Assembly (NCBI GenBank): GCA_012034575.1 | Contig: JAAUPF010000003.1 | Span: 1 to 64,000, forward strand | DNA from: Richelia sp. CSU_2_1 | GTDB lineage: Bacteria; Cyanobacteriota; Cyanobacteriia; Cyanobacteriales; Microcoleaceae | Direction of reading: 5' to 3' | DNA length: 64,000 nt | Part shown: in pieces, positions 14,191 through 17,136 of the stretch | Layout of the letters: every line of letters starts with the position of its first letter | How positions within the stretch are numbered: the first letter of the stretch is position 1 | The notes under the pieces: generated by a model | Seen by the model: the letters and a program-made list of their open reading frames with translations, nothing else | Databases searched by the model: none | What the model was told of the DNA's origin: nothing | Made by a program: the position numbers and the translations under genes

Positions 14191-14570
14191 AAAGATAGTT
14201 GATAGTTGACAGTTGACAGTTGACAGTTGACAGTTGTTCGGGAGTTATGAGTTTTAAGTTTTGAGTTTTGAGTTAAGAAGAGTTTTAATTTAACTCACAA
14301 CTGGTCACTCAACATTCAAAACTTTTTCAGTTGACCTGGGACAGTTAATAGCGCAGTTTTACTCGTTTTTTACTCGTTACCAGGCTGTGCCTGGTAATGC
14401 AGGTCTGGAGGCTCTGCCTCCCGTTTCAACGTTCCCAGGCGAGGCAGAGCCTCGCGGATCTGGGTTCCCAGGCACAGCCTGGGAACCAGTGAACCAACGG
14501 GTTGTGCGAGGGGTAGGGACACGGCACTGCCGTGTCCTGGGCTTTCGACATGAAGAAGTTTGTGGAAATA
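14191..14570. repeat. Cluster of dispersed repeats between the SDR gene and the split tRNA
   Basis: Contains TTGACAG heptamers (about 14201-14236), a long imperfect palindromic unit built on ACCAGGC...GCCTGGT and GGCAGAGCC (about 14376-14490), and the TAGGGACACGGCACTGCCGTGTC palindrome (about 14513-14538). No gene is visible here. Confidence 0.65.
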
Positions 14571-14648
14571 TCGGCAGTGCAGGAGTTGAACCTGCCTGAG
14601 GCGAATTAGTTGCCTAAGCACAAGAGTCACCTTTTGTACTCGGCTGCC

Positions 14649-14681
14649 AAACCGGACGTACACCTTTGGGCGTATCCGGCT
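14649..14681 (-). ncRNA. Group II intron domain V
   Basis: The 33-nt hairpin has a lower 7-bp stem (AGCCGGA with TCCGGTT, including the AGC triad), the invariant 2-nt bulge (CG), an upper 6-bp stem (TACGCC with GGTGTA, one G-T pair) and a CAAA tetraloop. The fold and the bulge position match domain V of group II introns. It lies directly after the stop codon of the intron reading frame, as usual. Confidence 0.85.
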
Positions 14682-14686
14682 TTACG

Positions 14687-16420
14687 TTAGATGGAATCTG
14701 TAATAGACCCCGCATTTTTCCGGTGGATTTCATCGTGGCAATATAGGTGAACTAAGGTTTTGTTTGACCTTTTGTTGTTATTTTCTATTGCCGTCAATGT
14801 GATGAACCTCTATGTAATCTTCAATGGTGAAAAGTTGCTGACAGTGTGAGCATCGACCCTTTTGAGTTTTTTAACCCAGATCGAATGTCTTTAGGTGTTA
14901 AGGATGGTCGCCTCGGCGAGTAGTCCAATATACCCAATCTCCGTCATAAGGGCTTTTAGTACCTTGTACCTTAATGTAGTGTTTGTACTCGAACGAGTAC
15001 AACATTTCTACAAGGTAAAGGTGGTTCCCTTCTTTCCATCCAAAGTTCCACGATGATTCCTTGCTTTTGAAAAATATTCGCGAGCAGATATATCCATCCC
15101 CTTTCTGGGAAAACTTCTTTCTTCCCCAATTCAAGTAAACCTTGTACAGGCTATGTTGAACTTTTGAGAACACTTCGTGTGAATGACTTCCACTTTTGAA
15201 GTAGTTTCCCCACCCTCTGATGAACCAGTTAAGGCTTTCAATCATTGGGCTGGTTCTTGGGATTGTCCTTTATTTAATAGGGCTTTTAGATGGGATTGAA
15301 ATCGTTTTACGGATTTGTCTGAAGGTAGCACTTTTGTGACCATCCCCAGAGATTCTCCATTAGTTTTCTTTCCCGCTCTGTTTTTCCCTCTAGTAAAGGA
15401 TTGGATATGGAATCCTAAGAAGTCGAAACCAGGTTTTTTCTCTTCGTCTCCATTCAGTGAGTGACATATTCTGGTCTTTTGCTCGTTTAGCGTAAGTCCA
15501 ATGTTTGCCATCCATTCTTTGGTTTTTTCGAGAGCTGCCTTGATTACTGCTTCTTCTTCATGGATGATTACAAAATCGTCGGCATACCTTATTACTCGCG
15601 CCTCACAGTATTCCTTCATTTTCCCATCGGGTTGACCAATTCTAGTCTTCCTTGTGGGGAAATTGGATGAGATATAGCTTTCAAATCCGTGTAAAGCTAT
15701 ATTTGCTAGCAATGGTGATATGACGCCGCCTTGTGGGGTTCCTGATACTGTTTTGTGAAACACGTCTCCGACTAGAACGCCTGATTTGAGCCAAGCTCTT
15801 ATCTGCTTTTCCATGTCGGGAAATGTCTTTAACTTTTGTATCAGAGCCTCGCGGTCAATATTATCGAAACATCCTTTCAAATCTGCATCTATTAGATACT
15901 TAGGTGTTTTTCGGATGCTTAATTCGATTGCCTCTATAGCATCGTGACAACTTCTACCTGGTCGAAATCCATAAGAATTCGGTTCAAATAGTGCTTCCCA
16001 TTCTGGTTCTAGGGCTAACTTGGCTAGTGCTTGTTTTGCCCTGTCTACTATCGTAGGAATGCCTAGAGGACGTTTCTCCTTTTTGCCTGGTTTTGGGATT
16101 TCAACCCTTCTCAAAGGTGAGCTTTTACCGTCTAATCGTAATTGTTCGGCTAGTTCTATCCTTTGTTGGGGATTTAGGGATTTAACTCCGTCGATTCCCG
16201 CCGTGCATTTGCCTTTGTTTTCTTGTGTTACGCGACGGACTGCTACCAATCTGGCGCTGTATGAAGAAATTAAGGTTTTTTGGAGTTTGACCGCGAGTGG
16301 TTTGTTTCCACTTTTGGATGCTTCGTAGATCTTCGTTTGTAGCTTTATCACCTTTGTCTGGATTTCACTCCAAACTATAGATGACCATTCCGCTTCTAGA
16401 GCCTTGGACATAGCCTTCAT
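14687..16420 (-). pseudogene. Group II intron reverse transcriptase/maturase/HNH protein, frameshifted
   Basis: The first frame (16420-15242, 392 residues) holds an intact reverse-transcriptase domain. GIDGVK is near residue 75, IPKPGKKEKRPLGIP near 108-122, GFRPGRSCHDA near 151-161, and the catalytic YADD at 279-282. The maturase X domain (SLNWFIRGWGNYF...) continues from about 15240 in a different frame that begins with an ATG overlapping the RT stop (ATGA). After RRGDHP at about 14898, two further frame changes are needed to read LTPKDIRSGLK and then the HNH motif CSHCQQLFTIED...EVHHIDGNR. A last shift near 14780 recovers HLYCHDEIHRK, and TAA lies at 14687. Four frameshifts in the C-terminal third indicate a decayed protein, although the RT part remains open. 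An intact member would have about 575 residues. Confidence 0.85.
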
Positions 16421-16636
16421 CCGCGATCTACATCTTTCTAACGTTCAATCTTTTGGCGTATCCCACACATTACATGGGGGCTTTTGCTTGAGATTGAATC
16501 CTTCACATCTTTGATTCACCTAGCTGGTGAGCCTTGTTAAGGGCTTAAATCTTAGATGTTTCCCTCTTATCCTATATCGAGCATATATGACGATTTAGGT
16601 GCCTGCTTTCTCCAGATGGGATTAATTGGATCGTCT

Positions 16637-16656
16637 CTAGGCTACTCAAGACCTAG
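16637..16656 (-). ncRNA. Intron EBS1 hairpin (exon-binding site 1)
   Basis: On the minus strand the stem CTAGG/CCTAG closes a 10-nt loop TCTTGAGTAG. The TGAGT in the loop pairs with ACTCA, the last five nucleotides of the tRNA 5' exon. Its location about 275 nt into the intron agrees with the usual position of EBS1 in domain I. Confidence 0.6.
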
Positions 16657-17136
16657 TTTCCTTCCCATGTGTTCTTTTGAACCCAGCGTATCATTCCGTT
16701 TCGCTGGTGTATCTGACTGGAGTTGGTAATGCAGGTTCACTTTCGTTCACCTTGTCGTCGCCCTCCCCTAACTACTATGTGTGGAATCACTTGGTAGATG
16801 GGTTTTATCTCTAGCTTATTAATCCTGGGAGTTGCTAGTTCCCAGAACCGAGATATGGAGTCCCCAGACGAATATGGGGGGTGGATTTGCACCACCATGC
16901 TCGATCGGCATCGAGTCGCACTGAGTTCGCTGCCTAAACCGCTCGGCCAACTGCCGTAAAGTTGGTTTTTGAATTATAACTTAAATTGCATTATAACACT
17001 ATTTGCCAGTCCGTGTTAAAACTAGATAACCAGAATCAAAATATTTGATTTGCTGAGTCCCGATCGCCCGCTGGTGGCAAGCTAGAGTCGATCGATCGCG
17101 TCCAGCAGTTTCTACAATTTGGCATAAAAACAGGCA

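Follow-up and report, generated by a model that had tools for sequence, protein, structure and literature searches.

A probable group II intron at the anticodon of a cyanobacterial tRNA-Ile(CAU) gene

A group II intron has been described before in a bacterial tRNA gene. TeI4h, reported by Mohr, Ghanem and Lambowitz (2010, PMC2882425), interrupts a gene of Thermosynechococcus elongatus, tRNAIle(CAU), that is single-copy and putatively essential; its authors infer that it retrohomes and that it splices to leave a functional tRNA. The paper also records that the active site of its reverse transcriptase (RT) reads YAGD, that the intron starts with T and that its family also has intergenic members. 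Group I introns are well known from Azoarcus (tRNA-Ile) and from tRNA genes of cyanobacteria (PMC3984707). The subject here is an insert in a stretch of 64,000 nucleotides, called the window, from Richelia sp. CSU_2_1 (assembly GCA_012034575.1, contig JAAUPF010000003.1). It splits a tRNA-Ile(CAU) gene between anticodon positions 35 and 36, and is very probably a real group II intron in the single gene of that kind.

By sequence, the best relative of the intron-encoded protein (IEP) in the PDB is 6me0_C, which is taken here to be TeI4h. The 6me0_C sequence matches genome G094 at 531 of 531 residues (a rounded 100%); the active site is YAGD in G094, as in PMC2882425, and YADD in the query. Two more copies in G094 stand at 87%, the figure that paper gives for TeI4c. 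In G094 the TeI4h copy follows CCAGGGTTGGCCGAGCG, which is the D-loop, after nucleotide 17; this site agrees with C-16, A-15, G-14 and G-13 of the paper.

Like TeI4h, the anticodon intron is of group II, encodes an RT-X-D-En protein and occupies a single-copy tRNA-Ile(CAU) gene of a cyanobacterium. The insertion sites differ: TeI4h occupies the D-loop, whereas the anticodon intron sits at 35/36 in 10 genomes. The two IEPs are about 34% identical over trimmed columns, and TeI4h falls outside the clade of the anticodon intron. Because the site is different and protein identity is this low, the anticodon intron is regarded as an invasion separate from TeI4h. Judged from sequence, it is an independent colonisation of a kind already known. 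The initial annotation had suggested an undescribed class of bacterial tRNA intron, a claim overtaken by the 2010 account of TeI4h in tRNA-Ile(CAU) (PMC2882425). Beyond TeI4h, the literature searched gave no bacterial tRNA gene interrupted by a group II intron, and nothing on the anticodon-loop site, this lineage, its breadth or its horizontal spread.

The split gene and its intron

Joining the minus-strand segments 16956-16922 and 14608-14571 gives a 73-nt cloverleaf, called tRNA(cat) by ARAGORN, with a 7-bp acceptor stem, a 5-bp anticodon stem, a 5-bp T stem and the loop CTCATAA. On the unedited window ARAGORN reports zero tRNAs; the 73-nt tRNA appears only after 14609-16921 has been removed. 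Thus, tRNA finders can overlook intron-split genes of this sort.

The 5' exon (16922..16956, minus strand) is 35 nt long, covers tRNA positions 1-35 and ends in GCGAACTCA, as placed by ARAGORN on the joined exons and by uninterrupted genes of the genus. The 3' exon (14571..14608, minus strand; 38 nt, tRNA positions 36-73) runs from TAATTCGC to GCCGA and is supported by the same join and by a tRNA search of the genus. Between them lies the intron (14609..16921, minus strand; 2313 nt), which begins GTGCG and ends GGCAAC. On the minus strand GGCAGCGAACTCA is followed by GTGCGACTCG at the 5' border, and TTAGGCAAC by TAATTCGCC at the 3' border. The tRNA fold, an Rfam RF00029 match ending exactly at 14609 and an alignment of eight introns agree on these limits. 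The initial annotation, which had reached the same cloverleaf and boundaries from the tRNA fold and the intron ends, was exact to the base.

Domains V and VI lie at 14609..14684 (minus strand), where cmscan gives RF00029 a score of 43.7 bits (gathering 40); folding and covariation support them, with the bulged branch-point A at 14615. The RF00029 match at 14684-14609 is the sole match at gathering score across the window. Nothing else in Rfam is found between 14500 and 17000 up to E 1, and since this includes domains I-IV, no subclass is assigned, IIB1 (CL), to which TeI4h and EcI5 belong, included. In domain V the AGC triad (A10-G11-C12) is invariant in 10/10 distinct rows. Folding places a single bulged A in domain VI, 7 nt from the 3' end, in 11/11 introns. 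The start is GTGCG in 10/11 (GTACG at locus L091) and the end AAC in 11/11.

A group I intron, the usual intron of bacterial tRNA genes, has precedents in Azoarcus tRNA-Ile and in cyanobacterial tRNA genes (PMC3984707). For this insert such an identity is scarcely credible: the group II model alone matches in Rfam and no Rfam group I model does, and the insert has an RT/maturase open reading frame (ORF), GTGCG/AAC ends and a bulged-A domain VI.

The hairpin of exon-binding site 1 (EBS1; 16637..16656, minus strand) carries the loop TGAGT at 16648-16644, which is complementary to exon ACTCA. This loop is found in the same place in 11/11 introns and is invariant in an alignment of eight distinct hairpins. 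Its partner, intron-binding site 1 (IBS1; 16922..16926, minus strand), is the ACTCA at the end of the 5' exon, identified by sequence and by complementarity to EBS1, and it takes in the anticodon nucleotides C34 and A35.

Covariation supports both structures, which were derived from the same sequences, a bias in their favour. In the EBS1 stem, two-sided changes occur at 6/6 pairs and 91.7% of cells pair, compared with 58.7% in shuffles; its covariation score was reached by 0/500 shuffles. In domains V-VI (10 distinct rows), 98.5% of cells are paired and 13/27 pairs show two-sided changes, each value reached by 0/500 shuffles; the number of pair types was reached by 1/500. Shifting the pairing partners by 1-3 columns abolishes the signal for the EBS1 stem and for domains V-VI alike.

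Comparison of genes indicates that the split gene, which the initial annotation called CAU but did not place among the CAU tRNAs, is tRNA-Ile(CAU), the AUA-decoding tRNA, because distinct Met CAU tRNAs are present, TilS is present, no tRNA-Ile(UAU) is listed in genome G017, and the gene matches that of G094. Besides the split gene, the window genome contains Met tRNAs of the initiator and of the elongator type, and one of its tRNA arrays includes a CAU gene that looks initiator-like; these labels were assigned by the author's reading of the sequences. G017, a carrier in the same genus (99% complete), has an elongator Met gene, two copies of an initiator Met gene, one array CAU gene, tRNA-Ile(GAU) and the split gene, and its tRNA list contains no tRNA-Ile(UAU). 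TilS, the lysidine synthase whose substrate is tRNA-Ile(CAU), scores above cut-off in 29/29 genus genomes and in 4/4 further carriers (33/33). The G094 region is 92% identical over tRNA positions 18-67 and belongs to the gene named tRNAIle(CAU) in PMC2882425. AUA is used: across 35 long ORFs of the window it makes up 119 of 857 Ile codons, and it occurs in 32 of the 35.

The split gene is apparently the only gene for the AUA decoder in this cyanobacterium. In the four genus carriers, genomes G061-G064 and G403, searches found only split tRNA-Ile(CAU) halves, plus weak partial matches in some. A Laspinema-type tRNA query had no match at all in G206, which therefore says nothing about a second copy, nor in G329, where the intron copy is ectopic. 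No extra array CAU tRNA matched the tRNA-Ile(CAU) query well, and G011, another genus carrier, has 41 tRNA matches in all. In G032, a second tRNA-Ile(CAU)-like sequence (C262:3293-3362, L082), 90% identical, stands alongside a 99% copy and may reflect contamination or duplication.

Arrays of tRNA genes were observed directly in the window genome, G017 and G061-G064; the one on contig C39 of the window genome (L063, L233) is long, counting over 20 tRNA genes whose sequences are unusual. The idea that such arrays are what permits insertion was dropped: 24/29 genus genomes have at least 50 tRNA matches, and the carriers have 60, 41, 47 and 70.

Around the gene, a conserved -10-like element of putative function, GTTATAAT (16990..16997, minus strand), lies upstream; a close match is present at -40 to -46 in 29/29 genus genomes, carriers and non-carriers. 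Downstream, at about 14369-14540, palindromic short repeats give self-inverted matches, and a few further genomes of the genus have similar stretches in their downstream flanks. Elsewhere in the window genome, a second RF00029 match above cut-off (C211:5233-5309, minus strand; L002) is perhaps an ORF-less intron or a fragment; no related IEP was found within the surrounding 12 kb.

Carriers, empty sites and movement between hosts

The joined 73-nt sequence was used to search 61 genomes of the family. Within the genus, 25 of 29 genomes have an uninterrupted tRNA-Ile(CAU) gene at 97-100% identity, and the other four (the window genome, G011, G012 and G017) have only the halves 1-35 and 36-73. 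Both exons of the window genome exactly match uninterrupted genes of the genus, for example that of G031. Upstream flanks can be aligned across the genus, downstream flanks only in part; since the upstream flanks align, the loci are orthologous. An uninterrupted orthologue in most of the genus shows the tRNA gene to be old and the intron to be a newcomer. The initial annotation had allowed that the exons might fit a tRNA by chance, which the 25 uninterrupted genes contradict; its central proposal, a group II intron that must be removed from a tRNA(CAU) gene at 35/36 before decoding, is well supported by this comparison.

Carriers outside the genus were sought through related IEPs. From a scan of GTDB contigs the best 80 of 340 loci were kept; 75 of these were testable for junctions, the other five lacking upstream sequence, and 16,247 candidate joins were examined. 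Six of the testable loci gave a junction-spanning tRNA, and in every one of them the split tRNA-Ile(CAU), cut at 35/36, was among the joins found. A seventh locus, L091, whose intron start GTACG fell outside the scan pattern, has the same split tRNA when read by eye. These carriers are G017, G011, Tychonema bourrellyi FEM_GT703 (G012), Laspinema olomoucense D3b, L. palackyanum D2a, Phormidium pseudopriestleyi FRX01 and Oscillatoria sp. S11.Bin022. When 388 genomes from the class were searched by profile and the 30 resulting loci put to a strand-aware junction test (28 testable), G403 and G206 were added, again at 35/36; G206 is a single-contig genome from another family. In total, 10 genomes have the intron in tRNA-Ile(CAU) at this site, four in the genus and six from other cyanobacterial lineages.

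Recurrence also bears on the quality of the assemblies. The window genome is a draft of 370 contigs, and a contig of G011 breaks at the intron 5' end, so that intron and tRNA might have been fused by assembly or binning. Such an artefact is extremely improbable, as the same junction is present in independent assemblies that include Tychonema bourrellyi, the two Laspinema, Phormidium pseudopriestleyi and the single contig of G206.

Among the testable loci (75/80 and 28/30), and within the end patterns used, no other related IEP was found in a tRNA gene. These relatives are mostly 41-48% identical to the IEP of the anticodon intron. Each of the four genus carriers has one strong IEP match (above 750 bits). 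In G013 (L329) there are 16 matches to related group II IEPs, several with identical scores, which marks them as multi-copy relatives. One junction, at L318 (G208:C249:6570-8213, minus strand), proved false, the flank containing a complete tRNA-Ala; the related IEP gene there lies near five tRNA genes in a row (His, Ala, Arg, Val, Gly).

In a tree of 40 IEPs rooted on TeI4h, the nine complete tRNA-site members and one copy from G329 form a single clade with support 1.0. The G329 copy (L295, G329:C1, about 1023184-1024875, minus strand) is inserted between ACTCA and TAA in non-tRNA sequence and has an intact YADD. It is nested within the tRNA-site clade as sister to the RT-mutated copy of G206, a position that suggests an escape from the tRNA site. 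An intron lineage dedicated to the anticodon site of tRNA-Ile(CAU) looks new.

Evidence for movement between hosts is provided by comparing introns with host genes. The introns of G011 and G017 are 97.4% identical, and the synonymous divergence (dS) of their IEPs is 0.126, against 0.716 for TilS; in the upstream flanks 192 nt could be aligned, with 79% identity. Introns this similar in hosts whose sampled DNA differs by about 20% indicate horizontal movement. Carriers are scattered in the TilS tree, and the nearest TilS relatives of the genus carriers (G031; G016 and G021; G027 and G028; G018 and G029) have empty sites. On these comparisons the intron lineage is spreading horizontally into the same site, with retrohoming as the expected mechanism.

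Alternatively, the 10 tRNA insertions might descend vertically from one old insertion, followed by many precise losses rather than repeated homing. The G011-G012 pair fits this, with an IEP dS of 0.381 close to the TilS dS of 0.403, as under vertical descent, and intron clades broadly track host groups. The case for transfer, moreover, draws on a single host gene (TilS) and the upstream flank. Part of the distribution may thus be vertical. As an account of the whole, vertical descent is unlikely in view of the G011-G017 divergences and of the empty sites in the closest TilS relatives of every genus carrier, and horizontal spread is preferred.

The variable loop reads CTCAG instead of CCCAG in the carriers G000 (the window genome), G011 and G017 and in 4/25 empty genes; G016 and G021, the closest relatives of G017, have CCCAG. 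This variant, of one nucleotide only, is a possible trace of co-conversion.

The intron-encoded protein

In the window the IEP is broken into parts, a feature that the initial annotation does not mention. The first (15242..16411, minus strand) is an ORF with the RT N-terminal and RT domains (Pfam RVT_N and RVT_1) and an intact YADD; comparison with three intact relatives shows that it ends at a frameshift. The second (14898..15245, minus strand) contains the X or maturase domain (Pfam GIIM) in another frame, and its ATG overlaps the stop of the first part (ATGA). A 1-nt deletion at the RT/X border is responsible for the shift, the ATGA stop/start falling at an internal Met codon. Further indels disrupt the endonuclease part, and 14690..14897 (minus strand) is a frameshifted remnant of a C-terminal HNH-like domain, identified by alignment with G011 and G017; the 585-aa frames of relatives are open here. 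The C-terminal motif was recognised as presumably HNH-like, and HNH models match the C terminus of a Laspinema relative weakly (E 0.0075 and 0.041).

The introns of G011, G012 and G017 are all 2313 nt long, and the four genus introns are 89-97% identical to one another. The IEPs of these three genomes are intact at 574 aa; Pfam recognises RT and X (GIIM) domains in that of G017, which scores 320.5 with TIGR04416, over the cut-off of 300, compared with 283, below it, for the truncated part in the window. The ratio of nonsynonymous to synonymous divergence (dN/dS) of the IEP is about 0.05-0.07. A search of plasmids covered at most 26% of the query, mostly with RT genes.

Two members of the lineage have changes in the RT active site: G403 reads YADN and G206 reads YAHD. 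Both frames are open and full length, with the GIIM domain present. G206 and its YADD-bearing sister G329 have, respectively, 23 and 3 unique changes in the RT palm (158 sites, p = 9e-5). For the N-terminal part the figures are 6 and 1 (46 sites), and for the endonuclease-like part 7 and 1 (36 sites). In X the counts are 1 and 0 (34 sites), and in the next domain 2 and 2 (39 sites). Within G206, the palm differs from X plus D with p = 0.024 and from X alone with p = 0.084. For G403 the unique changes number 18 against 9 (palm), 1 against 4 (X) and 4 against 7 (D), and no difference reaches significance.

Across the sample, a non-YADD motif is found in 3/10 complete tRNA-resident IEPs, TeI4h included, and in 5/96 informative others (Fisher p = 0.027); the sequences are non-independent, L115 and L157 were excluded for having no readable motif, and the window's frameshifted IEP, which has YADD, is in neither group. 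Loss of YADD was rejected as a diagnostic of tRNA residence because five of the 96 non-tRNA IEPs lack it too, and 7/10 complete tRNA-resident IEPs retain it. The pattern in G206 and G403, small in number and drawn from related sequences, fits a loss of mobility with the maturase retained. RT decay with the maturase domain kept, as it appears in these two members, looks new.

Splicing at the anticodon and comparison with known systems

A pathway can be proposed in which the locus is transcribed as a pre-tRNA, as the conserved -10 element would suggest. The EBS1 loop TGAGT would then pair with exon ACTCA, including C34 and A35, a complementarity that is seen directly. Aided by the maturase, the intron would leave as a lariat branched at the bulged A of domain VI, and A35 would be ligated to U36, as anatomy and covariation imply. 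The ligated tRNA would fold, and TilS, which is present, would turn C34 into lysidine to allow reading of AUA. The intron could retrohome to uninterrupted tRNA-Ile(CAU) genes in other cyanobacterial hosts; movement itself is seen by comparison, and retrohoming is its probable route. In some residents the functions of retrotransposition would decay, while splicing would have to persist.

Since IBS1 includes C34 and A35, the intron could not recognise its exon once the anticodon arm has formed, nor could the arm form while the exon is bound. The reaction would be drawn forward as the ligated tRNA folds and, next, as C34 becomes lysidine. A latch can be imagined on this basis: C34 pairs with a G of EBS1, and lysidine would make position 34 pair with A instead, blocking reverse splicing into the completed tRNA and rendering the reaction one-way.

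Several observations weigh against this account. Splicing, the lariat and the mature tRNA are all deduced from sequence, anatomy and covariation. The IEP of the window genome is frameshifted while those of the other three genus carriers are intact, and no other IEP of the family was found at E <= 1e-120 in this 86%-complete assembly; the indels could also be errors of sequencing, the assembly being a draft whose contamination is 6.6%. The tRNA list of the window genome is incomplete, without an Ile(GAU), Asp or Cys gene, so its lack of a UAU tRNA carries little weight. Extra CAU tRNAs in the arrays of some carriers might in principle serve as backups. Two of five shuffle measures for the EBS1 stem are unexceptional, the two-sided pair count being reached by 35/500 shuffles and the pair types by 60/500. 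EBS2/IBS2 was not identified; in a complementarity scan upstream of IBS1 the best pairing was shared by 4/11 introns.

Splicing in the window's own strain is likely but unproven, because its IEP is broken. It may proceed through the RNA itself, through a maturase from elsewhere, or through a coupled two-piece RT and X protein, which is possible but speculative. The intron could also be dead in this genome, leaving a tRNA pseudogene and AUA to be read by another tRNA such as the array CAU tRNA; the frameshift, the broken HNH-like part and the presence of a CAU gene in the array speak for this. It is nevertheless quite unlikely. The exons are identical to uninterrupted genus genes such as that of G031, EBS1 and domains V and VI are intact, the array CAU gene reads as initiator-like to the author, and at least 50 tRNA matches are found in 24/29 genus genomes, carriers and non-carriers alike. 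A spliced and functional tRNA-Ile(CAU) is therefore preferred.

The anticodon intron can be set beside other introns of its hosts and of bacterial tRNA genes. The multi-copy group II introns of the same cyanobacteria have related IEPs, but none of those testable lies in a tRNA gene. Group I introns in bacterial tRNA genes have an unrelated ribozyme and are not known to encode an RT/maturase. They too are self-splicing in tRNA genes, with evidence of lateral transfer, in Azoarcus tRNA-Ile and in cyanobacterial tRNA-Leu and tRNA-fMet (PMC3984707 and PMC3073962). In this light TeI4h is no isolated curiosity: residence of a group II intron in an essential bacterial tRNA arose at least twice in the same gene, and one of the lineages appears dedicated to the anticodon loop and moves between species.

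A further comparison is with plastids. MatK, the protein of the plastid trnK intron, no longer functions as an RT but persists as a maturase; a selfish retroelement becoming an obligatory intron with a maturase is the route proposed for trnK/matK. Like those of G206 and G403, the trnK intron belongs to group II and interrupts the anticodon loop of a tRNA; its maturase is RT-deficient, as the proteins of G206 and G403 may be. It differs in being plastid-borne, in tRNA-Lys and at another position, and MatK has lost far more of its RT than these IEPs and is not known to have an endonuclease. It may be, as a tentative proposal that falls somewhat short of an expectation, that a bacterial counterpart of MatK exists here: an intron lineage resident in the anticodon of a single-copy, essential tRNA and obliged to splice, with RT lost and the maturase domain kept under selection. 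G206 (YAHD) and G403 (YADN), perhaps the split IEP of the window and, independently, TeI4h (YAGD) are equally tentative candidates for such loss. The cyanobacterial introns would then offer a natural series for how a selfish retroelement turns into an obligatory intron with a non-transposing maturase.

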